Below the pieces are notes generated by a model. The model did no database searches. It was not told the origin of the DNA and saw only the letters and a program-made list of their open reading frames with translations. This document shows positions 2,385 to 23,189 of a DNA stretch of 27,631 bases, in pieces. Within the stretch, counting starts at the first letter, position 1; every line of letters starts with the position of its first letter. Origin of the DNA: a virus. Made by a program: the position numbers and the translations under genes. The stretch covers positions 1 to 27,631 of the IMG/VR virus record IMGVR_UViG_3300020222_000141; one strand, given 5' to 3'.

Positions 2385-3299
2385 TTATAATTTATATGTT
2401 TTTTCAAACTGTATAATAGCATAATCCTTAGATTTAAACTCAAATTCAAAATCCACATTATCTAGATTGTTATATTCATCAGGTATGCAACGAACATAAT
2501 CACCATGCGCACGTGGATTTGTATTGGTAAGGTCATTGTCACTAAAATGAAATAATGGACGATGCTTCCCCCAAGTAGACATGGCTACATTTACAGCCTC
2601 TTTCGCAGAGAACTTACCATTGTTACACCGATAATGTAAATTGTCGTAGGTAATCGGAATACCAGTTTGAGAATAAATAAGGTCATACAATTCGTCCACT
2701 TTCCAACTATTAGGTTTATCTTCGTTCTCCAAGACTAGTCTTGGCCTAACATTGTCAGGTAATGCTTTATAGACATCAATAAAACGCAATGCGGTGTCTT
2801 TTACGTTACCCTTATAACAATTCATATGAATGTTAATAGGAGCTTCGTATGAACGAGGAAGACCAAAGTAGTCCATCATTTTGCCATGCATAGCCAATTC
2901 CTCAATAGATTTTTTAACAACTGTAGAATTTGCACTAGCAGGAACCACAAATTGATCAGGATGTGTTGAACAACGAATATTGTATTTTTTAATAATATCC
3001 GCACACAAATCAAATTCTTGTTTAATTTTAGAAAAATTGTAATTGTTTTCCAATAACAAATTAGCATCTGGTAGTGTTTCCAACGGCATCATACCGCTAC
3101 TAATGCGATAATTCCATCCACGTTGGCCACAAAACTCAAGAGTCTTACGAGTTACATAAACATTGTTAAGAGTTCTATCCGCAACAATACGTTCTGCACT
3201 CTTACGCTCAAGAGCAAGAAATCGGGTTTTGGTCATGGTAGAAGCCTTGATACCTTGTTCTTGCAGCTTGAGGGAAATACAACAAAGAGATTTTTTCAT
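2385..3299 (-). CDS. uvsE: UV damage endonuclease, UvsE/UvdE family
   Basis: The 304-residue protein has the TIM-barrel signature of UV damage endonucleases in order: WNYRISSGMMPLE, then STHPDQFVVPAS, NIHMNCYKG, LVLENED, ITYDNLHYR, LFHFSDND, RAHGDYV, and a C-terminal DFEFEFKSKDYAI segment that fits the metal-binding Glu/Lys end of the family. Length is normal for the family (about 300). The enzyme nicks DNA 5' of UV photoproducts using divalent metals and so starts alternative excision repair; here it would protect or repair phage DNA. I chose ATG at 3299 rather than the TTG at 3314: GAGAA lies just upstream, and a promoter places the mRNA start at or near this ATG. Most T4-like phages use DenV for this task, so UvsE is a different solution. 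Confidence 0.9.
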   Translation of the reverse strand: MKKSLCCISLKLQEQGIKASTMTKTRFLALERKSAERIVADRTLNNVYVTRKTLEFCGQRGWNYRISSGMMPLETLPDANLLLENNYNFSKIKQEFDLCADIIKKYNIRCSTHPDQFVVPASANSTVVKKSIEELAMHGKMMDYFGLPRSYEAPINIHMNCYKGNVKDTALRFIDVYKALPDNVRPRLVLENEDKPNSWKVDELYDLIYSQTGIPITYDNLHYRCNNGKFSAKEAVNVAMSTWGKHRPLFHFSDNDLTNTNPRAHGDYVRCIPDEYNNLDNVDFEFEFKSKDYAIIQFEKTYKL

Positions 3300-3305
3300 A
3301 TTCTC

Positions 3306-3334
3306 AATATACAATATACATTATAATAAGTCAA
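3306..3334 (-). promoter_or_regulatory. Sigma70-type promoter for uvsE, possibly leaderless
   Basis: Minus strand: -35 TTGACT (3334-3329), 17-bp spacer, -10 TATATT (3311-3306). Only six bases separate the -10 from the ATG at 3299, so transcription would start at or next to the start codon. Confidence 0.6.
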
Positions 3335-3337
3335 CTG

Positions 3338-4513
3338 TTATCGTCCTACTTCTTTGAAATAAACTGATTTGGCTTCTTCATATGTCATACCTATCATTTT
3401 ATTATAATAAAGAATATCAGATTTTAGATTATTTTCCGATTTCAATTTCTTGTATCTTTCAATTGCTTTTGGTTTCCACCATTCCATAATACCATTTATA
3501 TCTTTCTTAAATAGTTCTTTCATCTTCAATTGGTCTTCTCCGATTTTATTTTGAAGAAATTCTTTGGTATTTTCATAAAAACAACTATAATATACCCCAC
3601 GTTCATATCCATGTTGATAATCAGTTGTTTTTATTCCCAATTGTTGAAATATCATACTAATAACTCGGTTCTTAGCACCTGTTACGGGTCCACTAACACC
3701 TTCTTTTTGAGTCATTGCTTCATTATATTCTTGACTCTTATTATCTTTCAACCATTGATGCCATACTTCATAAACACTATCATCTGGTTTAATCATCATT
3801 TTACCTGCACTACTACCACATTTGTGCCACCATTTAAGACTGTTATACATACTATAACTACCATATAGTGATGTTGTAGTAATACCTACAAGTGTTTGAT
3901 TATATAATTGTTTCCAGAGTTCTCTAGTTTTGGAACATGTAACTAAAGCGGCTATTAATTTACCACCCAAGAAATTATAACCAAATGGTTGAGTAGACAT
4001 AATACAACTTCCAATAGCACTATGTGCAAGTTTTTTATTGTCTAATCTATTTTCACTAGTCCAGCCAATATAATTATCTCTATCAGTTATGGCAATTACA
4101 TCACTGGATATGCTTACCACACCCAAATAACGAGGTTCATCTACATTCCCATCAGCAATCAACAGTTTTATAAATCTACCAGGTGTCTGAGCATATTCCA
4201 TCGTATGACAAAATGTTCTTAACATTAACCAATCATTATCTACTCGGGATTCAGTTACATGAACAACAGTTGGATTTATTGACTCAATTTCTTTAATAGT
4301 TAATTGTTCGTCATTAATATCAGTTGGGGTCCAAATCTTAGCTTTTGATTGAGATGACTTATTTATATAATGACTCAATCCTTGAACTTCCAACCATTTC
4401 TTATAAAAGGTCTGTTCTTCCGCAGTCATACCCCTCAAGAAATTTAAATTATTTATAAACTTTTGTTTCTCAAGGTAAAAGTCAAAATCTCCACTATCCC
4501 AAAAATCACTCAT
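3338..4513 (-). CDS. DUF4338 family protein (DruA-related)
   Basis: The 391-aa protein carries the core pattern of DUF4338: RYLGVVSISSDV (128-139), then DRDNYIGW (144-151), a helix, TQPFGYNFLGGKLIAAL (174-190), a segment starting RELW (197), and LVGITTTSLYGSYSMYNSL (208-226). DUF4338 is the domain of DruA, a component of the Druantia anti-phage system; its biochemical activity is not established to my knowledge. The C-terminal half (MTQKEGVSGP to WWKPKAIERY) looks like the phage form of the family. It follows two small unknown genes with ATGA overlaps, so the three are probably one translational unit. A role in phage DNA metabolism or in counteracting or excluding other elements is inference. 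Confidence 0.7.
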   Translation of the reverse strand: MSDFWDSGDFDFYLEKQKFINNLNFLRGMTAEEQTFYKKWLEVQGLSHYINKSSQSKAKIWTPTDINDEQLTIKEIESINPTVVHVTESRVDNDWLMLRTFCHTMEYAQTPGRFIKLLIADGNVDEPRYLGVVSISSDVIAITDRDNYIGWTSENRLDNKKLAHSAIGSCIMSTQPFGYNFLGGKLIAALVTCSKTRELWKQLYNQTLVGITTTSLYGSYSMYNSLKWWHKCGSSAGKMMIKPDDSVYEVWHQWLKDNKSQEYNEAMTQKEGVSGPVTGAKNRVISMIFQQLGIKTTDYQHGYERGVYYSCFYENTKEFLQNKIGEDQLKMKELFKKDINGIMEWWKPKAIERYKKLKSENNLKSDILYYNKMIGMTYEEAKSVYFKEVGR

Positions 4514-5421: not shown

Positions 5422-5450
5422 AGTATATCAGACGTTATATATTATGTCAA
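5422..5450 (-). promoter_or_regulatory. Near-consensus sigma70 promoter for the 131-aa gene
   Basis: Minus strand: -35 TTGACA (5450-5445, perfect), 17-bp spacer, -10 TATACT (5427-5422). The -35 overlaps the stop codon of the VWA gene. This is the best-matching promoter I found in the window. Confidence 0.75.
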
Positions 5451-7552
5451 TCTTTATCTAAAAACATTTTATTGATTGTTTTGGCAATATCAAAAATGTT
5501 ATCTATGTTGACATACGTAGCATGTTTACCATACATGGTCTTAAATTGTTTACGAATCTTATCAGATTCAATTGAAAGAGAAGCGAGATTATAAGTAGAT
5601 TCATAGGAGTCTCTGATGAAATAACTCAAAATCTTATATCCCTTGTCACGAATTTTATTTACCTGTTGACGAGTATGTATTAAAGCATTTTCGTCTTGAT
5701 AAGCAACAGAGTCACCATTAGGTTCTGAATAAGTCATGTATGGTTGTCCATCACTAAAATTCAAAAAGTAAAAATTGTCATCCGTAGATGTGGGTAGATG
5801 TTCCATGATTGCCTCATAACACAATCCTTCAGGAGTGCATCCAGCGGGAACAATATACGGAAATAGATTCTTTACCTTATTAATTTTATCAATAGAAGAG
5901 TCATAAGCAAGAACCACGTATGGCAATTGAGAATTTGTAACTCGCGTGCAACTAAAGGTTGACCTAAAACTCACACTTACTCTCAAATTATCAATCATAG
6001 AAGCGGCCTTACAAATAGCTACAACAGCAGTCATTGTGCTTGTCCACTTCTTGCCATTCATGCTAGAACTGGCATCTATACTAATGTGAATATATGATTT
6101 ATTATAACGGTCTACATCGATGTTATAAAATACATTTTCATTATCAAACGACAATTCTGATAGAATACGTTTGTCAATTCTTCCGGTAGACTTACGCATA
6201 TGCTTACATGTATTGATTTCATTGCGAATTTGTAGTCTACGGCCAAGAGCAGCGCCTTGAATAAATCCAAGGTTTACAGCGTCCGTCAACTCTTTTGTTG
6301 TATAAGCATTTTCTTTATAATCAAGACGGCTTAACGGGAACATTTCGCTGTTGATAAGTTCTTTGGTAAGCTTCTTAACAACAATTGAATCTACACTATA
6401 AGTTCCATCTGACTTAATATAGTTATTACCAACAACTACAAGAGTCATTCCAGACTGTTCGATAGCATCCAGAATCTTCTTTTCTTTGGCGGTAACCTTT
6501 TTCTTTTTAATATTACCGCTCAAAAAATCCCGTTGTTTATCCAAAGCCTTACGAATTTGGTTATTTTTAATCTTAGAAATGTTTTTATCTTCACCAATAT
6601 TTTGTTTTACTTCTTGTTCTTTTGTAGTATCAACCTTTGTTGTATCATTGACACCAAGAATATCATCAATAGATTCAGATGATTTAGATTTGTTCGATGA
6701 ATCAGAAGAACCAATTTTGGAAATAATTGCATTTTTGGATTCAGACTGGGATTTAGAATTTCCCCCATCTGATTGATTATCAGAATTATTATTTGATTTT
6801 GTAGACTGTTTAGGAGCCTCGACAATGTTCTTTAGAATAATTTCTGATATCTGATATGCTATATTCAATCGATCAGTTGTAGTCTTTAACCTATCAATAT
6901 CAGATAGGTCAATAATTTTAGCAATGTCACGTAAACCTGGCAACGCTTCCAAGTCAGTATTCTTATTATTAAAATTAACAATACGAGCTTCATAACTCGC
7001 AATACTGGGAACTCTATATAGATTACTCTTTAACATCACATCAATCTTTGGACTGTTAAAATAAGTATCGTATAGTGCGGTGTAATATCCTCTATATCCA
7101 GGAGCGTTATTAAAGACATAGTTGTCAATATAGCGGTCCTCAATATAGTTCAACATGTTCTTTACAAGAGAATGAACATCTTCCTTTGTAATTTGTAAAT
7201 GTTGGGCATAGTTGTATAGATCACGAGGAACTTTTTGCCAAACGGTCTTGAATATATCAAAATTGGTCAACAATACATGACTACCTTCATGTAAAGCAAG
7301 ACCTACAGCGGGGTCAAAATCCTCTTTGTTAACAATATCAGAAGAAATATACACAACACTACCGTCAGTGCAATTTTCCCCAGTATCATTAAAATAGACA
7401 GGAATAGACTTGTTTGTAAGAATATGAACGAAATTGCTGATAGCTCTACGAGCCATTGCCAACTTAATCAAGTTGGTATTAATTGCCTTTTCGTTATCAA
7501 CTTCTTCGAAATCAAAGTCGTCCAACCAATAATCGCTGTAGGTATTTTCCAT
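5447..7552 (-). CDS. VWA-domain protein with N-terminal HExxH metallopeptidase-like region (CobT-like)
   Basis: The 701-aa protein has two recognisable parts. Residues 80-100 contain GLALHEGSHVLL, an HExxH zinc-protease motif (H88-E89-x-x-H92). Around residue 493 HISIDASSSMNG supplies the DxSxS metal-ion-dependent adhesion site of a von Willebrand A domain, with further site residues in GCTPEG and NFSDGQP. Between them, roughly residues 245-325 are Ser/Asn/Lys-rich and likely disordered. The gene follows a MoxR-type AAA ATPase by 12 bp; such ATPase/VWA pairs (MoxR-VWA, CobS-CobT-like) remodel or insert cofactors into target proteins. In phages they are often labelled cobalt chelatase, but nothing here points to cobalamin. 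The target is unknown. Whether the peptidase is active cannot be decided, since the third zinc ligand is not clear. Confidence 0.8.
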   Translation of the reverse strand: MENTYSDYWLDDFDFEEVDNEKAINTNLIKLAMARRAISNFVHILTNKSIPVYFNDTGENCTDGSVVYISSDIVNKEDFDPAVGLALHEGSHVLLTNFDIFKTVWQKVPRDLYNYAQHLQITKEDVHSLVKNMLNYIEDRYIDNYVFNNAPGYRGYYTALYDTYFNSPKIDVMLKSNLYRVPSIASYEARIVNFNNKNTDLEALPGLRDIAKIIDLSDIDRLKTTTDRLNIAYQISEIILKNIVEAPKQSTKSNNNSDNQSDGGNSKSQSESKNAIISKIGSSDSSNKSKSSESIDDILGVNDTTKVDTTKEQEVKQNIGEDKNISKIKNNQIRKALDKQRDFLSGNIKKKKVTAKEKKILDAIEQSGMTLVVVGNNYIKSDGTYSVDSIVVKKLTKELINSEMFPLSRLDYKENAYTTKELTDAVNLGFIQGAALGRRLQIRNEINTCKHMRKSTGRIDKRILSELSFDNENVFYNIDVDRYNKSYIHISIDASSSMNGKKWTSTMTAVVAICKAASMIDNLRVSVSFRSTFSCTRVTNSQLPYVVLAYDSSIDKINKVKNLFPYIVPAGCTPEGLCYEAIMEHLPTSTDDNFYFLNFSDGQPYMTYSEPNGDSVAYQDENALIHTRQQVNKIRDKGYKILSYFIRDSYESTYNLASLSIESDKIRKQFKTMYGKHATYVNIDNIFDIAKTINKMFLDKD

Positions 7553-7561
7553 AGTCCACTT

Positions 7562-7590
7562 ATTTTAGAATGGAGGCTGGGTATTGTCAA
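7562..7590 (-). promoter_or_regulatory. Candidate sigma70 promoter for the VWA gene
   Basis: Minus strand: -35 TTGACA (7590-7585), 17-bp spacer, -10 TAAAAT (7567-7562), inside the last codons of the MoxR gene. The predicted start is within about three bases of the VWA ATG at 7552, so the mRNA would be almost leaderless. Confidence 0.5.
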
Positions 7591-8518
7591 CCTTTAAGGG
7601 GTCATTGATTAATGTTTCTGCCGTAGCAGCAGGAATATACTTCTGAACCAATTGTTTAATATAAGTTCGTTCACTGTCAACTCCACCATCAGTCATGAAG
7701 TTGGGATAAATTGCAGTTTCAGCAATTTCGTTCAATGTAAATCCATCAAGAATAAGTTCACTCATTTCTACAGTAGAACGTGTAGGAATAAAGTTAGTAA
7801 TCTTACTATCTTCACTCTTTACCTGTTCACGGGTATGATGAGCAATCTCACAAACAGCAGTAAGAATCTTTAGAGAAAGTTCATCCGTAATAGAAAACCG
7901 AGTCTTCAAATAATTAAATTCAGTTAGATTATCCATAGGAGACATTTCAATCTTGATAGGGAAACGACTCATAAGAGCACGGTCCATTACCCTAGTAGCA
8001 GTATATTCGTTACCGATATTTGCGGTTCCAATGAAACACACACCCTCAGCAACCTTTACAACATCACTCTCTATCTTTTCGTCCAATCGTAGATAACGTT
8101 GAATGTCGTCCAATACAGTCATCAATACGTTCCAAGCATCGTGATGAGCACGGCTAACTTCATCAAGAAGAATTACAGCATTTGGAGTCTTGATTGCCTT
8201 GACGAATGTAGATTCACTAAAATAAGTTCCAGATTCCTTATTGTAATGTGTATTTCCAATAAGAGATGCACGTGCATCTTGCGCAGCACCAAGATTGAAA
8301 TAAAAGAAAGGGCGGTCTAAAGCATTAGCTACTGTTTGAGCCGCAAGAGTCTTTCCACATCCTGTTGGTCCCACAACCAAAATGTTCTTTCCACGATAAA
8401 CAGACCGAACCAAATATTTCCATTTGATATCGTCCATTATGAGACTTACCGGCTTCAACTTGGAAGCGTTATTAATTAGCGATTTCGTATTCATTGTTTT
8501 GTTTAATACTTTCTTCAT
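7565..8518 (-). CDS. MoxR/CobS-type AAA+ ATPase
   Basis: The 317-aa protein has a Walker A motif GPTGCGKT (residues 50-57 from this start), a Walker B motif VILLDEVSRA with D119-E120, a sensor-like GVCFIGTANIG segment, and the arginine-containing MDRALMSRF. This is the CobS/MoxR branch of AAA+ ATPases. It is paired with the VWA protein directly downstream, the usual arrangement in which the ATPase ring powers remodelling by the VWA partner. I chose ATG 8518 because an extended -10 promoter ends seven bases before it and upstream codons fall in promoter and terminator DNA; ATG 8527 is possible. The C-terminal extension is variable. Substrate unknown. Confidence 0.82.
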   Translation of the reverse strand: MKKVLNKTMNTKSLINNASKLKPVSLIMDDIKWKYLVRSVYRGKNILVVGPTGCGKTLAAQTVANALDRPFFYFNLGAAQDARASLIGNTHYNKESGTYFSESTFVKAIKTPNAVILLDEVSRAHHDAWNVLMTVLDDIQRYLRLDEKIESDVVKVAEGVCFIGTANIGNEYTATRVMDRALMSRFPIKIEMSPMDNLTEFNYLKTRFSITDELSLKILTAVCEIAHHTREQVKSEDSKITNFIPTRSTVEMSELILDGFTLNEIAETAIYPNFMTDGGVDSERTYIKQLVQKYIPAATAETLINDPLKVDNTQPPF

Positions 8519-8525
8519 TACACCC

Positions 8526-8553
8526 ATCTTACCATGAGTTTTTATAAAGTCAA
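8526..8553 (-). promoter_or_regulatory. Sigma70 promoter with extended -10 for the MoxR gene
   Basis: Minus strand: -35 TTGACT (8553-8548), 16-bp spacer, -10 TAAGAT (8531-8526) preceded by TGG (extended -10). The -35 directly follows the T run of the upstream terminator, and the -10 ends seven bases before ATG 8518, again suggesting a leaderless mRNA. Confidence 0.55.
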
Positions 8554-8580
8554 ACAAAAAAACCGCCAAAATGGCGGTTT
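8554..8580 (-). terminator. Rho-independent terminator after the exported-protein gene
   Basis: On the minus strand AAACCGCCA pairs perfectly with TGGCGGTTT (8580-8572 and 8568-8560) around a 3-base loop and is followed by TTTTGTTT. It lies 24 bases after the stop of the 112-aa exported protein and ends that transcript just before the MoxR promoter. Confidence 0.88.
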
Positions 8581-9636: not shown

Positions 9637-10419
9637 TTAAAAATACAAATTATCATTGTTATTTTTTACAGTTATTTCTGTTATTTGATCTATATGATTA
9701 TTTATCTTAGGTGGAGTCAACACTTTATGCTTAAGTGATTTAGCAAGTTTTTTGTTTTCTATCTTGTTAGTTATAAACTTTATATATCTATGTTTACCGC
9801 TTTCCTTTTTACGCCAAAAGGTTCTTCCTATCTTCTTCTTTAATATATCCACACTGTGACTTCCCCACTTAGAATACACAGTTCTACTATGTATCCAATC
9901 ATAATTTGGTGGACCAGATAGACTTACACTGTAGTTAGGCATTAATGCCACACTTACATAATTGTCTCCCTGATATAAAAAGCCAGTAGCTTGATAGATT
10001 TTACCAGTATGTCCAGCCTCACTATCCGCGTAACTGAGAATGCATTTAATTTGTGGATAATCTTTGTTTAGGTGTCTAAACGATTCTGCGATACAATAAC
10101 TTTCTATATTCTTACCATATCCATCCTCAATCCACAGACGGGTTAATTCAAACACATTATTGTTATTAAGTAATGGACTAACACTGGTGCTAGCATTCCT
10201 ACCAACAGCTTGTCCATATACTAATACACCAATTAATTTACTATTATACCCACCAAAAAATGTGCTTTCTATGTATTGTTTATAATAAATACCATAAGCA
10301 ATCCTACAAACTGTCCATTTGTGTGTATAATGGTTTTTTATTATTAAATCCTTGGCTAAATTCTTATGAATTGGTTTGAGATAAACCAATGAAGTGTCAC
10401 AATAATTTTCGTTTGTCAT
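9637..10419 (-). CDS. Mom-like GNAT-fold DNA-modification protein
   Basis: The 260-aa protein carries the pattern of Mom-like phage proteins: a KLIGVLVYGQ strand (61-70), FELTRLWIEDG (90-100), a helix beginning KNIESYCIAESFRHL, and SYADSEAGHTGKIYQATG (129-146) ending in LYQGDN. Mom of phage Mu converts adenines in phage DNA to N6-methylcarbamoyl-adenine, protecting it from host restriction; its fold is an acetyltransferase-like (GNAT) fold. Here an acyl or carbamoylmethyl transfer to DNA is inferred from the pattern, not shown. The basic C-terminal region (RRKKES, many Lys) could bind DNA. The 5' end overlaps the SemiSWEET-like gene by 23 bp. An alternative is a GNAT protein with another substrate. 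Confidence 0.65.
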   Translation of the reverse strand: MTNENYCDTSLVYLKPIHKNLAKDLIIKNHYTHKWTVCRIAYGIYYKQYIESTFFGGYNSKLIGVLVYGQAVGRNASTSVSPLLNNNNVFELTRLWIEDGYGKNIESYCIAESFRHLNKDYPQIKCILSYADSEAGHTGKIYQATGFLYQGDNYVSVALMPNYSVSLSGPPNYDWIHSRTVYSKWGSHSVDILKKKIGRTFWRKKESGKHRYIKFITNKIENKKLAKSLKHKVLTPPKINNHIDQITEITVKNNNDNLYF

Positions 10420-14527: not shown

Positions 14528-15913
14528 TTAATCGGTGTCCTCATCACTCATATGAGCGTTCCATTTACCTGACATCATTTTCTTGACTAGATTTTCGCCT
14601 TGGTTCATCTCATTAATAATACCAACACCTTCTCTGCTATTTTCAGAAAAAATCTGGATATCACCACAACCAGCATTCATTCTACTTGGAAATGTAATAC
14701 CATCAGGTCCAAATCGATTCTTTATGATATGAAATCGTGCGGTGTTACTAACTTTATCGTTAACTTTACGACTTAGTGACATAACAAAGTCTGCGGTCAT
14801 AATTTTTCTATAACTATCCGAGATATTATTTGCTTGGATAATATCCTCATCCATTGCCGCTCTATTACTTTGACTCGCTGTCCAAATTGGAACCTGAAGT
14901 TCGCCGGCAACACCACGAAGTTCTTCATATATACCACCAGCTTCACTATAACTGTTACTATTACGTTCACTTTGTGTTGGACGTAGAATATCAGCATAAT
15001 CGACTACAATCATATCTACTTTCGTTCCCAAGGTTTGAATACGTTCTGCGTGAAGTTTCAAACTATGAGCGGACACAGTTTTGATAGGGAAATACTTAAT
15101 GATAAGTTTACCAGGAACTTCAGAAATCTTTTTCTTTACAGTATCAATGTTGTTACGAATGTTCTGGAAATCAATACCAGTAAAACACGCGTCATACCTT
15201 AACCCGACATAATTTTCATTTAACTCAAGAGTATAATGTAATACATTTTTTCCTTGTCTCATTGCTTCAGCACCAATTTTACTCAATACCCAACTCTTAC
15301 CACTACCTGCACAAGCTGTAACAATACCAAGTTCGCCACCGGCTAATCCGCCGTCCAAAATAGTATCAACTTCAACCCAATTAGTTTTGATTGTTTTACG
15401 AGCCATCATGCTCATACGTTTTTCGATATCAACGTCGTATTCATGACCAATATTACGTTCCATACCAGCTTTCATTGCAATATCTACAACGTGCTTAATT
15501 TTATCATATTGACCGTTTTTCAAATGATCAACACTTTCCATGATAGCGTTCTTTAACTTCTGATTCTTACAGAATTCAAGAAACTGCTCTTTAATAAATT
15601 TCAAATCACTATCTGTGATTTTTTGGTAAACCAAACGTAATTGGTCTACTACTGTTTTCTTTAACAGTTCATTTTCAATACTATCAACCTTTACCTTAAA
15701 GACGGCGAGTGTAGGCAGTTCCTTGTAATGTAGAAAATAAGTTATTGTTTCTTTAACAATAAATTGATGTGCATCTGTCTCGAAAGATTGCGGTTCAATA
15801 ATATCGCTGATTCGTTCAATAAATGTTTTGTCACTTACAAGTGCTGAAATGCACTTGGTTTGAAACTCAGTTCCAAACTTCTTTAGATTGTCTATAATAT
15901 ATGTTTCGCTCAT
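14528..15913 (-). CDS. 41: Replicative DNA helicase, DnaB/T4 gp41-like
   Basis: The 461-aa protein has an N-terminal helical domain (to about residue 165) and a RecA-type motor. The motor carries Walker A ACAGSGKS (200-207) after GGELGIVTA, Walker B MIVVDYADIL, and the helicase segment PIWTASQSNR of the DnaB family. It would form the hexameric 5'-3' helicase that unwinds DNA at the fork and binds the primase (gp61 in T4; no primase gene is in this window). The acidic tail (MSDEDTD) is typical of phage replication proteins. It lies next to RNase H, UvsX and gp32, a compact replication block. A 63-bp gap separates it from the upstream RNase H gene, containing TTCTATAAAA, a possible -10 element. 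Confidence 0.93.
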   Translation of the reverse strand: MSETYIIDNLKKFGTEFQTKCISALVSDKTFIERISDIIEPQSFETDAHQFIVKETITYFLHYKELPTLAVFKVKVDSIENELLKKTVVDQLRLVYQKITDSDLKFIKEQFLEFCKNQKLKNAIMESVDHLKNGQYDKIKHVVDIAMKAGMERNIGHEYDVDIEKRMSMMARKTIKTNWVEVDTILDGGLAGGELGIVTACAGSGKSWVLSKIGAEAMRQGKNVLHYTLELNENYVGLRYDACFTGIDFQNIRNNIDTVKKKISEVPGKLIIKYFPIKTVSAHSLKLHAERIQTLGTKVDMIVVDYADILRPTQSERNSNSYSEAGGIYEELRGVAGELQVPIWTASQSNRAAMDEDIIQANNISDSYRKIMTADFVMSLSRKVNDKVSNTARFHIIKNRFGPDGITFPSRMNAGCGDIQIFSENSREGVGIINEMNQGENLVKKMMSGKWNAHMSDEDTD

Positions 15914-15976: not shown

Positions 15977-17044
15977 TTACGATACAAACGAATTTACTTT
16001 ACCAAATACTTCTTGTAACCAAATCATACTATTTGGAAAGTTATTCTGCATATTATCTTCTAACAACAACTTGCTAAAGTTGTATCTATCAAGTTTAGTC
16101 AGTGATTTCTCAAGAATTTCATTGATTCGGAGTTGACTAAATGTCTGTATCTGTGTGTCTTGTAATTGCATTAATTGCCAATTACGTTCCATGATATTTT
16201 TATTATCTAATATTGTGTTATATAATTTATACTTTCCCTTGTGGGTATCACTATAATTATATATTTCCTGCAAACCATATTGTTTCTCCTCAGTGAAAAT
16301 AGGAAAACATTTGATAATGGTCTTTAATCCAGCACCATTTATACCATCAATATTATCGCTGTTATCGCCTTCCATAATACGATAATTAAGGAAGTTACTA
16401 CAACTAACACCATATTCAGTTAGTATTTCAGCACAACCATATAATTTCTTTTTAGTAGGACTCCATATTTTAACTCTATTATTTGCAAGTTGTAGAAAAT
16501 CTTTATCCGCACTCATAATAGTCACATTACTATTTTTGAAATATTGCGTAGCAAGATATGCAATAGCATCATCCGCTTCAATATGGTCAATTGCCATTGT
16601 TGTAACAGGCAATGTATTCAAATATTTTACAGTCTTAATTAACTGTATCTTTAGATTCTTTTCTTCTGAATCTGGGTTGCTTAAGTCTTCGTAAGTTCTA
16701 TTTAGTCTTACTTTTGTTTTTCTACCACTCTTATATTGTGGATATATTTTACGACGTTTCATCGACCCACCATTACCATCAGATACGATAATTATTCTTG
16801 TTGGATTCAACAATTTAACCGCATATCCAATACTCTTTAAACACCCAGCAATACCACCTGTGTGGTTCCCGTTTGCGTTTAATGATGGACTTGCCATAAA
16901 CGCTCTTAGAAAAGTATTCATGAAGTCTACAATAAGAACGTCCGAATTGAGGGTCCGATTAAGACCCTCAACCCGGTCAGTTGGTTTAATTTGATTGAAC
17001 AAACTAAACAACTTTTTCTTTTCACTATCAGTCAGATTGCTCAT
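15977..17044 (-). CDS. rnh: 5'-3' exonuclease / RNase H (T4 Rnh-like, FEN family)
   Basis: The 355-aa protein shows the FEN-type nuclease motifs: VDFMNTF (D40), SDGNGG with D89 and then MKRRKIYPQYKSGR for the DNA-contact Arg/Lys residues, HIEADDA (E156, D158, D159), SADKDFLQL (D180, D182), and EGDNSDNIDGINGAG with Asp residues at 227, 230 and 233 before a helix-hairpin-like loop. Like T4 RNase H it should remove RNA primers from Okazaki fragments. Its start overlaps the UvsX stop as ATGA, so it is co-translated with the recombinase. All metal-binding acids I expect are present, so activity is likely. Confidence 0.93.
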   Translation of the reverse strand: MSNLTDSEKKKLFSLFNQIKPTDRVEGLNRTLNSDVLIVDFMNTFLRAFMASPSLNANGNHTGGIAGCLKSIGYAVKLLNPTRIIIVSDGNGGSMKRRKIYPQYKSGRKTKVRLNRTYEDLSNPDSEEKNLKIQLIKTVKYLNTLPVTTMAIDHIEADDAIAYLATQYFKNSNVTIMSADKDFLQLANNRVKIWSPTKKKLYGCAEILTEYGVSCSNFLNYRIMEGDNSDNIDGINGAGLKTIIKCFPIFTEEKQYGLQEIYNYSDTHKGKYKLYNTILDNKNIMERNWQLMQLQDTQIQTFSQLRINEILEKSLTKLDRYNFSKLLLEDNMQNNFPNSMIWLQEVFGKVNSFVS

Positions 17045-18189
17045 TCTTCGTTACCAGCGGTTTCTTCGTCAGTATCAACTACGGCATCATCAACAATTTG
17101 ACTGTTGGGGTCTTTGTATTTCATAATAACAGAGTCACAAATCTTCAAATAAACTTCTTCTTTGAGAGATGAATCACTCTGCATTGTTTCAACAAAGTCT
17201 TTGGATTGGAACTTCCATTCGTTTCCGTCATCCTTTTTATAGGTATAATAAGCGCCACCTTGTTTAACAATGTTGTTTTCTTTCAATACTTTAATCCAGC
17301 TACTATAATCAGCAATACCACTATCAAAGTAGATATCGAATGATGCTTGACGTTGTGGTGGACCCATTCTGTTTTTAACAACTACTGCTTTACACTCATT
17401 ACCGATGATTGTTTCACCTTTCTTGAGTTTACCAGTATTGGTCAAACGAACACGAACACTACAATGATAAGCAAGTGCCTTACCACCACTTACTACATAC
17501 TTATCACCGAATGCCATAGCATTTAGATTCTGACGCAGTTGGTTAGTAAATACAGTAAGAACCTTCTGACGACCAATCATGTTGGTAATCTTACGCATTG
17601 CTTTACTGATAATAATACTCTTTCCCGTTGCAAATCCATCCTTACCGTGATCACTCTCCAATTCTGCCTTTGTAGAAGCAGCGGCTACAGAATCAACAAT
17701 AATTGTAAGAATACGATCTTTGTTAGACTTTCTTACTACACCAATCATTTGTTCCATCTTTTCAAAAATAACTTCTACAGTATCAGTTTGAACATATAGA
17801 AGATTCTTTAAATCTACACCAAGACTTTTCCAGAATCCTGGAGCAGCGGCGTTTTCGGTATCTAATACAACTGCGATACCACCTTTACGTTGAGTTTCTG
17901 CACAAATATGTGCGGATATTAGACTTTTACCAGTTCCTTCCAATCCGTTTAATTCGACCATTTTACCAACAGGCAATCCGCCGTGGGAACGGTTACTAAT
18001 TGCCAAATCAAGAATGGATGAACCTGTGCTAATCCAATCACTAATTTCGGCGGGATTTTCTTGTTCGTCCAAGAAATAAGCAATCTTTCCACCGTCTTTG
18101 TTTGCTTTATTTAATTCATTCGCCAACATTTCGACCAATTCGTCTCTTTGCGAACAATCATTCTGCGTAACATGTGTTTTCTTTTTCAT
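17041..18189 (-). CDS. uvsX: UvsX/RecA-type recombinase
   Basis: This 382-aa protein has the RecA core: an ISTGSSILDLAI entry, Walker A GLEGTGKS (82-89), Walker B LTIIVDSVAA, and the loop/filament segments around KVLTVFTNQLRQN and YVVSGGKALAYH. It ends in a long acidic tail (DTDEETAGNEE). Compared with cellular RecA (about 350 aa), the insertions and tail match phage UvsX. The protein forms filaments on single-strand DNA and drives strand exchange for recombination-dependent replication, working with gp32 from the next gene upstream. It is separated from gp32 by a terminator-like hairpin, so its level is probably set by read-through or by a promoter I do not see. No ribosome-binding site is evident before the ATG. 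Confidence 0.96.
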   Translation of the reverse strand: MKKKTHVTQNDCSQRDELVEMLANELNKANKDGGKIAYFLDEQENPAEISDWISTGSSILDLAISNRSHGGLPVGKMVELNGLEGTGKSLISAHICAETQRKGGIAVVLDTENAAAPGFWKSLGVDLKNLLYVQTDTVEVIFEKMEQMIGVVRKSNKDRILTIIVDSVAAASTKAELESDHGKDGFATGKSIIISKAMRKITNMIGRQKVLTVFTNQLRQNLNAMAFGDKYVVSGGKALAYHCSVRVRLTNTGKLKKGETIIGNECKAVVVKNRMGPPQRQASFDIYFDSGIADYSSWIKVLKENNIVKQGGAYYTYKKDDGNEWKFQSKDFVETMQSDSSLKEEVYLKICDSVIMKYKDPNSQIVDDAVVDTDEETAGNEE

Positions 18190-18252: not shown

Positions 18253-19062
18253 TTAACTGTTAAACAAATTATCAAAAGCCTTTGTGAGGTCTTCAGTATT
18301 TGATTTGCTTGCGGAAGCCGATGGTGATTTATTTGAAGTTGATGCTACTGGAGCAACAGCATCTACATCTCCATCATCATCTGATACCGCATTCACACTT
18401 GGTTCAGACGTGGTTTCTGGATTTAACCAAGCATCCATTACTGCCTTGAGTTGGTCATAACTCAATTCTGGAAACAAGTCAAGAATGTTGGTTTGTTTTC
18501 CAAGCAAATCTTTCTTTGAAACATCAATTGCGGTAGATGTGTTTGGTTTAACACGAATTGTAGTTTCTGGAAAACTCTTGCCAGATTCCTCTGCGGTTCT
18601 GAATTCCACAACAATATCACGACCATTTACAGGATCGGTAATATCACCATAATCCGCATCGCTGATAATGCTAAGAAGTTCTTGATAAACATTCTTTCCG
18701 AATCCCCAGAAACGGACACCTTGGTCTTCTTCACCACGAACAATCACAGGAACATAGGTTCTCATTTTGGGTTCCATCTTACGCCCCAACTGCCATTCTT
18801 CTTTGTTTCCGGTCTTTTTCATACGATTGGACCATTCAACGATTGGATCTGGACGGTTAAAACTATCAGGTGAAAGATAGGTTTTGTTATTGATATTATA
18901 GTGAAACTTTAACTCAATAAACGGATTCTCAGGAGCATACTTGTAGGGAACAATACGAACAACCTGTTTTCCAGGATTTGGTTTCCAAATCAAGTTAGAT
19001 TTTTGATTTGTGTTTGTTAAAGAATTCAAACGATTCTTAATTTTAGATAGGTCTAATGCCAT
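18253..19062 (-). CDS. 32: Single-stranded DNA-binding protein, T4 gp32-like, without zinc cysteines
   Basis: The start MALDLSKIKNRLNSL is the basic N-terminal cooperativity helix of gp32. It is followed by the OB-fold core beginning LIWKPNPGKQVVRIVPYKY, with RFWGFGKNVYQELL and a DITDPVNGRDIVVEF segment. A Ser/Ala/Asp-rich linker leads to the acidic-hydrophobic C-terminal tail DLTKAFDNLF, which in T4 recruits replication partners. The protein has no cysteine at all, so it lacks the zinc subdomain of T4 gp32. It should coat single-strand DNA during replication and recombination. It is monocistronic by layout: own promoter, structured leader and terminator. Length is 269 aa versus 301 in T4. 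Confidence 0.92.
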   Translation of the reverse strand: MALDLSKIKNRLNSLTNTNQKSNLIWKPNPGKQVVRIVPYKYAPENPFIELKFHYNINNKTYLSPDSFNRPDPIVEWSNRMKKTGNKEEWQLGRKMEPKMRTYVPVIVRGEEDQGVRFWGFGKNVYQELLSIISDADYGDITDPVNGRDIVVEFRTAEESGKSFPETTIRVKPNTSTAIDVSKKDLLGKQTNILDLFPELSYDQLKAVMDAWLNPETTSEPSVNAVSDDDGDVDAVAPVASTSNKSPSASASKSNTEDLTKAFDNLFNS

Positions 19063-19146: not shown

Positions 19147-19175
19147 ACTATAAACCGAAATGGCAAAACACTCAA
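19147..19175 (-). promoter_or_regulatory. Sigma70-type promoter for gene 32
   Basis: Minus strand: -35 TTGAGT (19175-19170), 17-bp spacer, -10 TATAGT (19152-19147). The predicted start near 19140 gives a leader of about 78 bases carrying the hairpin described at 19063-19122. Confidence 0.5.
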
Positions 19176-19561
19176 CTTATTATATCGAAAAGTTTTATCG
19201 GAATTATTCTAACCGAAATCTCACTAGTTAAAATAAGGCAGTTGCTATAAAGTTCCCAATTTAATTGAAATTTGTTATTAAATACCCCATTATTTTCTTC
19301 AGCTATTAACTTATTCATAGCATTCAACGTATAAAGAGTATTGGTTTGTTTTTTTCTATGAAGTCCAATAGTATTTGGAAACTTTGGAAAGTGAGAACTA
19401 TCTTCTACATCTATATTATAAGTGATGTATATATTTTTAGGAAGTTTTACTCCGTTAAATAAAAATAGTTTATTATTTACGGTATAAAATTGTCTAATTT
19501 GGGCAATTAGATTTTTGTATTCTTCAACGGTTGAGAAAGTACAAAGTAGTTGTTTTTTCAT
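19172..19561 (-). CDS. Hypothetical protein (129 aa)
   Basis: The ATG overlaps the stop of the 221-aa gene (ATGA), indicating translational coupling. The protein begins MKKQLLCTFSTVEEYKNLI and looks like a small alpha/beta fold with several strands (KNIYITYNIDVED, NCLILTSEISVRIIPI). I see no catalytic motif, membrane segment or repeat, and I do not recognise a family. The gene 32 promoter -35 lies across its stop codon. Function unknown. Confidence 0.6.
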   Translation of the reverse strand: MKKQLLCTFSTVEEYKNLIAQIRQFYTVNNKLFLFNGVKLPKNIYITYNIDVEDSSHFPKFPNTIGLHRKKQTNTLYTLNAMNKLIAEENNGVFNNKFQLNWELYSNCLILTSEISVRIIPIKLFDIIS

Positions 19562-21419: not shown

Positions 21420-22772
21420 CTATATGTTTATAAATGTCATATCATTATAGTTCTTACCAATATAACACTTTGTCGGAAATTTACCATTTTCCATCAAAGT
21501 TTTGATATGAAATAATGTTTGTTTTTTGTCATCCTTATGAACGTCAAACAGAATACTATCATAAGTATATAATACCGCTTTAGTCTTCTTGTCTTTTAGA
21601 TACTCATTTACGGATGCGAGAGAATGTATGCCAAATTCTGTTTCACTAGCTTGTAGAATATAATTAAACAACTTATTTGGATTGGGGTCAAATATATGTT
21701 TTTTAGTAATTTGTCTCTTAAACACAGGTGTTTCTACATAACCGTATTGATTAAAGAACTGCCATCTATGGTTTATGTATGCCTTCATTTTATTATAATA
21801 TGGGATTTCCAATAATTCATCTGGAATATTTCCATACATACACTGAAATGTTAAATTCTTTGATGTTTTAATCTCATCTTTTGACAGTTCCTCTTTACCA
21901 TAATAGTATCTGCCCAAATATTCATAGGCATTAGACGGTAAAGAATAGTTGATTAGCTTTGCTACAATATGCGGATGATATGCGCTGTAGTCTATCATAA
22001 ATAACATACCATCATCACCATATCTGCTGATAAAAGACGACCTACATCCATTTTCTTTATTTAATGCACTGTAGTTTACGTTACCAAATCTATTACTAGG
22101 TCTCCCCGTTGATGTATATAGATTATATTGTGTATATACATATCCATTTACTATCTTTGGATTTTTATCTCTAAAACATGACACGAATTGGTTTTCATCA
22201 ACTTTTAATCCATTTTCTTCAAGAACTTTTAAATTTTCAGTTATTGTTCCGTTTAATTCTTTAAAACTCTGGTCTAATCTAATATTTTTTACCCGTTTTA
22301 AAGATTCTACACACATTTGTTCAAACTTCTCCAAGTGCAAAGTCAATGGAATTATATTATTAATATCACTATAGTTATTATACTTTTGTTTATAGAAGTT
22401 ATGAGTCGTTGTATCACATTCACTATAATCTTCCACTTTACCATCCGATATAAAAAATATAATGTTTATATCATAAAGATTATTTATAGTCAAAAGTTGT
22501 GAAAACTTCTTTTTATCAAAAACCCACTTCTTTCCAGATATACTGTTCAAATCGTCCACTAATCGTTGTTTATTTACTTTATATAAACAATCGTTATGAT
22601 TTATAGATAGAATGTAGGTAGATTGTTTTTGTATGTTATATACACATAATAAACTGATTTTTGAGATGCATGGATGTAGACGATCATCAACTTGAATTAC
22701 GTCACAAATCAAGTCATGATTGTTGTTTTCATGTATAAATTGTTTATACTCAACTTCTGACTTAATAATCAT
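21420..22772 (-). CDS. Compact family A DNA polymerase-like protein (450 aa)
   Basis: The C-terminal half carries the family A polymerase core in order. STGRPSNRFGNVNYSALN (231-248) corresponds to the TGRLSS...NLQNIP region, and motif A is MIDYSAYHPHI with D261. Motif B is KNLTFQCMYG, matching Taq KTINFGVLYG with K305, F309 and Y313-G314. GYVETPVFKRQ matches Taq GYVETLFGRRR, and motif C is LYTYDSILFDV with D405 (the usual His-Asp-Glu is Tyr-Asp-Ser). Residues 1-160 are in the place of the 3'-5' exonuclease, but I find no DxE motif, so proofreading is probably absent. It is much shorter than Pol I or T7 polymerase. It may be an accessory or repair polymerase; T4-like phages normally replicate with a family B enzyme (gp43), not seen in this window. 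Confidence 0.8.
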   Translation of the reverse strand: MIIKSEVEYKQFIHENNNHDLICDVIQVDDRLHPCISKISLLCVYNIQKQSTYILSINHNDCLYKVNKQRLVDDLNSISGKKWVFDKKKFSQLLTINNLYDINIIFFISDGKVEDYSECDTTTHNFYKQKYNNYSDINNIIPLTLHLEKFEQMCVESLKRVKNIRLDQSFKELNGTITENLKVLEENGLKVDENQFVSCFRDKNPKIVNGYVYTQYNLYTSTGRPSNRFGNVNYSALNKENGCRSSFISRYGDDGMLFMIDYSAYHPHIVAKLINYSLPSNAYEYLGRYYYGKEELSKDEIKTSKNLTFQCMYGNIPDELLEIPYYNKMKAYINHRWQFFNQYGYVETPVFKRQITKKHIFDPNPNKLFNYILQASETEFGIHSLASVNEYLKDKKTKAVLYTYDSILFDVHKDDKKQTLFHIKTLMENGKFPTKCYIGKNYNDMTFINI

Positions 22773-22808: not shown

Positions 22809-23189
22809 TTAACTTGATCTCCAAAATTCAAGGGGATCTCGTAACACGTTTTCTAAACCGGGTATATATTTTTTATATTTATTTATTTGTCGGAGATTAT
22901 ATTCATATACACCATTATAAATTTTTATTTTATTTTTAAATACATCATTTCTCTGTCCCGATATTCGCCATTCAACTGAAATTTTTGCATAAATATTTGG
23001 AGAAACATCCTTATAATTATCCTTGGAAATTTCATATATTACTTTGTCATTTATTTTTTTAACAAAATAACGATAGATAAACCCCGCCTCATAATCATTA
23101 GACTGTGGATAAGGTTTATTATAGACAGGGTATACTGTTTGTATCTCAGAATATCTTATATTTCTTTTATTGTCTGGATATTGTATCAT
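22809..23189 (-). CDS. Probable virion-associated protein (126 aa)
   Basis: The ATG overlaps the stop of the 889-aa structural gene (ATGA). The sequence (ending IQTVYPVYNKPYPQ at the start, then DYEAGFIYRYFVKKINDK and VIYEISKDNY) looks like a family of small proteins I associate with the tail region of T4-like phages, in which a YxxGxIxRYFxKK segment is conserved; this is recalled pattern, not a search result. Several Trp/Tyr residues (AKISVEWRISG) suggest a beta-rich fold. No enzymatic motif. It is the last gene of the structural run before the polymerase promoter. Confidence 0.5.
   Translation of the reverse strand: MIQYPDNKRNIRYSEIQTVYPVYNKPYPQSNDYEAGFIYRYFVKKINDKVIYEISKDNYKDVSPNIYAKISVEWRISGQRNDVFKNKIKIYNGVYEYNLRQINKYKKYIPGLENVLRDPLEFWRSS

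Follow-up and report, generated by a model that had tools for sequence, protein, structure and literature searches.

The window, that is, the whole stretch of DNA analysed here, is a 27.6-kb viral fragment that encodes a compact family A DNA polymerase together with genes of replication, recombination and repair:

21420..22772, minus strand: compact family A DNA polymerase, 450 aa (Pfam DNA_pol_A, AlphaFold2 model, Bst Pol I structural match)
22809..23189, minus strand: orf126, a small ORF usually upstream of the polymerase (synteny scan)
19172..19561, minus strand: orf129, a protein conserved between the polymerase and gp32 (locus comparison)
18253..19062, minus strand: gp32-like single-strand DNA-binding protein (Pfam gp32, 54.6 bits)
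17041..18189, minus strand: UvsX/RecA recombinase (PHROG UvsX, E 3.4e-72)
15977..17044, minus strand: FEN-type 5'-3' exonuclease, counterpart of T4 RNase H (Pfam 5_3_exonuc_N, 98.2 bits)
14528..15913, minus strand: gp41/DnaB-like replicative helicase (PHROG, E 3.2e-74)
2385..3314, minus strand: UvdE UV endonuclease (Pfam UvdE, 137.8 bits)

The ORF of the polymerase reads from 22772 down to 21420, and the opposite (plus) strand carries stops throughout this interval. An earlier note on this DNA had described the product as a 450-aa family A polymerase with motifs A, B and C, and the checks it named include a search against PF00476 and a structure prediction for palm and fingers. The search gave 36.8 bits (E 3e-9), above the cut-off of 34.3; DNA_pol_A is the sole Pfam listing for the protein, and the family B profile PF00136 gave no match. 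PHROG DNA polymerase families also match it, and the profile of the compact family recovers the Klenow fragment with an E value of about 5e-11. The AlphaFold model (mean pLDDT 93.5, pTM 0.89) has the Pol I fold, with palm, fingers and thumb all predicted to be complete. Residues 1-446 of the model superpose on the large fragment of Bst Pol I (Z 27.8, 413 residues, 3.3 Å); ordinary bacterial Pol I large fragments are the closest structures, and Pol theta and Pol nu are also among the matches. It is clear that the protein belongs to family A. Given the Pfam score, the Klenow profile match, the Bst fold and the relatives found in IMG/VR, the polymerase likeness of this ORF is not due to chance.

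The conservation of the active site was counted in a 68-sequence alignment of compact relatives that reaches down to 33% identity. Every motif listed in the earlier note lies at the residues given there:

21969..21992, minus strand: motif A, D261-Y-S-A-Y-H266-P-H (alignment to Klenow; D and H each 68/68)
21831..21872, minus strand: motif B or O helix, residues 301-314, with K305, F309 and Y313-G314 (alignment to Klenow)
21555..21566, minus strand: motif C, T403-Y404-D405-S406 (Y404 and D405 68/68, S406 64/68)

Residues R224, D261, Y313, G314, N370, Q374, Y404 and D405 are invariant, and K305 is present in 67 of the 68 rows, the remaining row having an ambiguous X. F309, the helper aromatic, is retained in 60/68 rows, and the GYVET segment corresponds to residues 344-348. 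The earlier reading of Tyr-Asp-Ser in motif C was confirmed (Y404-D405-S406), and family-wide this motif is Tyr-Asp-Ser or Tyr-Asp-Ala versus the canonical HDE. In motif A the catalytic D261 is retained, and H266 occupies the position of the steric-gate Glu (Klenow E710, Bst E658). The position of Klenow Arg754 is an Ile in the window protein and hydrophobic in nearly all rows. The altered motif C, the His gate and the loss of Arg754 could indicate weak or altered catalysis, and they speak for a reading in which polymerase activity has been lost and the protein has become a structural or regulatory subunit of the replisome. This outcome is very improbable, however, given that both catalytic Asp residues, the O-helix Tyr-Gly, N370, Q374 and R224 are maintained in every sequence, and K305 in every readable row, when a scaffold would not need them. 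The whole-gene dN/dS, where dS is unsaturated, is 0.06-0.14, which indicates purifying selection.

The His gate also raises the possibility of a ribonucleotide-tolerant polymerase, suited, for example, to making or extending RNA-containing primers or to gap filling late in infection at low dNTP levels, which would be compatible with the other readings discussed below. When the gate residue (E710 of Klenow, E658 of Bst) is mutated to Ala, discrimination against rNTPs is lost (PMC7200780). Glu is replaced by His throughout the compact family, and it is kept in the PolA of Kayvirus and in the full-length PolA of Immutovirus. Nonetheless, His may still exclude the 2'-OH and F309 is mostly kept, while a DnaG-type primase is encoded by relatives (5/5 searched records of at least 129 kb) and the window carries nrdA/nrdB. 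Ribonucleotide tolerance is regarded as unlikely. We are likewise doubtful that the family, as a whole, represents an undescribed and environmentally common subfamily in which the invariant His gate goes with relaxed sugar selection and with mixed dNTP/rNTP gap filling in a two-polymerase replisome shared with a family B enzyme. With His at the gate in each of the 68 aligned sequences, the family offers a natural test of the steric-gate rule.

The N-terminal part of the protein is occupied by one further feature:

22353..22772, minus strand: N-terminal domain, residues 1-140 (approximate boundary), degenerate 3'-5' exonuclease fold (whole-length structural match, column counts)

In the whole-length comparison, the structural alignment to Pol I large fragments starts at residue 1 of the model, which points to an exonuclease-type fold in the predicted structure; pairwise hhalign against single full-length proteins left this domain unaligned. 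Across the 68 relatives, no D-x-E column pair of the DEDD exonuclease residues is present in residues 1-145, whereas the exonuclease pattern was found in both positive controls, Immutovirus gp199 and Kayvirus PolA. The only near-invariant acids in this region are D101 and the D/E at position 61, and H33, H59, K87-K88, T121 and H124 are strongly conserved. The claim that no proofreading site is recognisable thus holds for the whole family, with the exonuclease fold present and its catalytic residues absent. Most likely, the N-terminal domain has the fold of an exonuclease but is catalytically dead, and remains under constraint; it may have been retained in miniaturised form as a structural or docking module. 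A separate exonuclease acting in trans was also considered; the Pfam family DNA_pol_A_exo1 matched only the full-length PolA of Immutovirus, and no dedicated partner was identified.

The large fragments of Bst and Taq Pol I, in which the exonuclease domain is inactive, share with the compact polymerase the whole-length fold, a degenerate exonuclease-like N-terminal domain, motifs A, B and C and the GYVET segment. The compact polymerase is smaller (450 aa versus approximately 580), with shorter fingers and a shorter exonuclease remnant, and differs from them in having His for the steric-gate Glu, YDS for HDE and no Arg754. It is also phage-borne beside gp43, with the FEN domain encoded separately. 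Two full-length phage PolA proteins were compared with the family, and the better profile match was the 1072-aa PolA of Kayvirus (Twortvirinae), with an hhalign E value of 4.9e-13. That enzyme differs in being full-size and in having the DxE exonuclease motif, a Glu gate (DYSALE) and HDS in motif C.

A single-sequence search with the window protein matched 85 stretches in IMG/VR, and the family profile matched at least 589. Five loci come from bacterial or archaeal genome bins and are probably phage contigs binned with these genomes. Protein length in the 68-sequence alignment is 418-468 aa (median 449), and the small size is therefore a family trait and not the result of truncation. A comparison with 50,697 named phage records gave matches covering most of the length in only three lineages, which are Flavobacterium phage Immutovirus (four records), Microcystis phage Mel-JY01 and LR756508, a record of 484 kb. 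RM378 was rejected as a relative, given that its PolB is present and a PF00476 match is undetectable. Immutovirus gp001 (441 aa, annotated as 'DNA polymerase family A') is a clear family member, with 30% identity over 92% of the query, and it lies in the same context (polA-x-y-ssb-recA-FEN-helicase-nrd). No paper describing gp001 was found, and a search of the open-access literature, with most subscription journals outside it, found no description of the compact family. The Far-T4 study reports DNA polymerases in the replication module, and no description of the compact enzyme was found there (PMC4360716).

The earlier note had left open whether the compact enzyme is a divergent second polymerase or the sole replicase. 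T4 gp43 works within the same T4-type replication module as the compact enzyme but belongs to family B. In the window itself, the ORF list and the family scans show no other polymerase; missing genes mean little in such a fragment, and gp43 was sought in relatives instead. All 13 records of at least 54 kb that carry the compact gene also encode a full-size second polymerase, which is a gp43-like family B enzyme in 12 and a full-length family A enzyme in Immutovirus. PolB was found in 10/10 IMG/VR contigs of this size, including those of 173 and 130 kb, and also in Mel-JY01 and LR756508. The closest case is the 72-kb contig G001, whose compact polymerase is 74% identical to that of the window and which encodes an 847-aa gp43-like PolB with Pfam polymerase and exonuclease domains, adjoining clamp and clamp-loader genes. 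The same two domains and the same neighbours are found for the PolB of contig G027, and in Mel-JY01 the annotation places PolB at a distance of two to four genes from clamp-loader subunits. In relatives, the gp43-like PolB is encoded separately from the compact gene, with the clamp and clamp loader. An exonuclease domain was confirmed in 3/3 of the full-size second polymerases checked. The PolB matches in contig G029 (locus L127, 69652-71978) and in LR756508 (260623-266900) are split over separate frames or interrupted by in-frame stops, and introns, inteins, a split gene or recoding may be behind this.

These results mean that the compact polymerase is not the sole replicase of its lineage, and that a second polymerase, as one of the two earlier proposals had it, accompanies a full-size enzyme wherever the record is long enough. 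A role as sole or main replicase, like that of family A enzymes in T7-like phages, would agree with its place alongside gp32, uvsX and gp41 in the core block of replication genes and with the lack of another polymerase in the window. The window is only a fragment, however, and the regular presence of a full-size polymerase in relatives, placed by the clamp and clamp loader in G001 and G027, together with the missing proofreading site, makes this role extremely unlikely.

Immutovirus deserves separate mention, given that no PolB match was detected in this T4-like phage and that a 777-aa PolA with an exonuclease domain (gp199; NC_055915, 37898-40231) is found instead. It appears that one replicase family has been exchanged for another here within a T4-type module. 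The compact enzyme is not a recent duplicate of this full-length PolA: a comparison of the family with gp199 by hhalign was not significant, and the compact copy of Immutovirus groups with the other compact proteins, in a tree whose deep placements are long-branched. The partners of the compact enzyme being PolB in some relatives and a full-length PolA in another, the compact enzyme is the constant element and the replicase the variable one. In crAss-like phages, A- and B-family replicases are swapped and none encodes two polymerases (PMC7886860), whereas here a constant compact PolA accompanies the exchangeable replicase and persists even where that replicase has been exchanged.

T4 is the textbook example of a phage replisome with one polymerase. 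It is seen here that a large and mostly uncultured T4-like lineage brings its own proofreading-dead enzyme of Pol I type beside a full-size replicase. A division of labour between two polymerases is directly testable in the cultured phage Immutovirus, which has Flavobacterium sp. LMO8 as its laboratory host, and the compact polymerase is on offer as a small Bst-like enzyme.

The position of the polymerase beside T4-like replication genes, as first noted, was borne out by the presence of gp32, uvsX, FEN and gp41 in the same gene block. The order polA-(...)-orf129-gp32-uvsX-FEN-gp41 recurs wherever the flank suffices. The gp32 gene follows the polymerase in every fetched locus with more than approximately 2.7 kb downstream, with uvsX, FEN and gp41 coming next as the flank allows, and baseplate genes lie upstream. 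The fetched loci include many near-duplicates, and the set spans down to 25-30% identity. The recombinase slot of the Immutovirus group carries the annotation RecA/RadA and was not matched by the window UvsX in the synteny scan. Protein distances of the polymerase correlate with those of gp32 (r 0.90), uvsX (0.93), FEN (0.96), orf129 (0.91) and gp41 (0.95), with 0/999 permutations as high for each gene, r partly reflecting shared phylogeny. With regard to the small proteins of the block, orf126 had no match in Pfam and PHROG searches. At 145 fetched loci, orf129 is encoded between the polymerase and gp32; the protein has an HRKK..NTLYT motif with invariant HRK..N..Y. Its model is alpha/beta (pLDDT 92.2), the fold search gave no convincing match (best Z 4.9), and it is a candidate partner of the polymerase or of gp32.

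The compact polymerase is most likely dedicated to gap filling or repair rather than being a replicase. Because it has the Pol I fold, lacks a proofreading site and shares its block with FEN and gp32, it can be read as part of a split Pol I, and from this we infer its catalytic activity, its partnership with FEN and gp32 and its biological role. The FEN protein would take off RNA primers or flaps, the compact polymerase would fill the resulting gap, probably with strand displacement as in the exonuclease-dead Bst Pol I, and ligase would then seal the product. Such an enzyme might serve Okazaki fragment maturation as well as gap filling linked to recombination or to damage (UV). T4 RNase H, itself a FEN, leaves a gap that either gp43 or the Pol I of the E. 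coli host can fill (PMC3012046), so that a Pol I-like filler of phage origin fits a known need; by the same token, a second enzyme is not strictly needed, given that gp43 can fill Okazaki gaps. We see about an even chance that the protein is a competent, proofreading-dead second polymerase that works beside a gp43-type replicase and, with FEN, fills gaps as a split Pol I.

The nearest rival to gap filling is recombination-linked or UV-linked synthesis, in which a second polymerase comparable to Pol theta or Pol nu would extend UvsX D-loops or pass UV lesions. Recombination-dependent or origin synthesis would account just as well for the linkage with uvsX and gp41, and gp32 nearby, the lack of proofreading, the altered active site and the structural matches to Pol theta and Pol nu are in line with such a function, as is the UvdE found in the window and in seven other records. 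Nonetheless, ordinary bacterial Pol I large fragments are structurally closer, the protein is too short for insertions like those of theta and nu, and UvdE is missing in Immutovirus, Mel-JY01 and the 484-kb record. The neighbourhood with FEN and gp32 favours gap filling over lesion bypass alone, and the recombination or bypass function is considered possible, if rather unlikely.

UvdE could supply nicks for recombination-linked or UV-linked synthesis in the window and in some relatives, and it is a possible upstream partner in excision repair. As a family-wide role, excision repair led by UvdE was rejected, given that the gene was found in only 8 of the 35 compact-polymerase records searched, and that LR756508 and the complete-genome records of Immutovirus and Mel-JY01 lack it.

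Further genes on the minus strand of the window are of interest in their own right. A Mom-family DNA modification protein (9637-10419, PF25680, 145.5 bits) suggests that the DNA of the phage is modified. A homologue of DruA, from the Druantia defence system, is present in this phage genome at 3338-4513 (PF14236, 81.6 bits). At 5447-8569, an AAA_5 ATPase (7565-8569) precedes a 701-aa partner in which a likeness to CobT/von Willebrand-type proteins is seen by eye, the pair being CobS/CobT-like.
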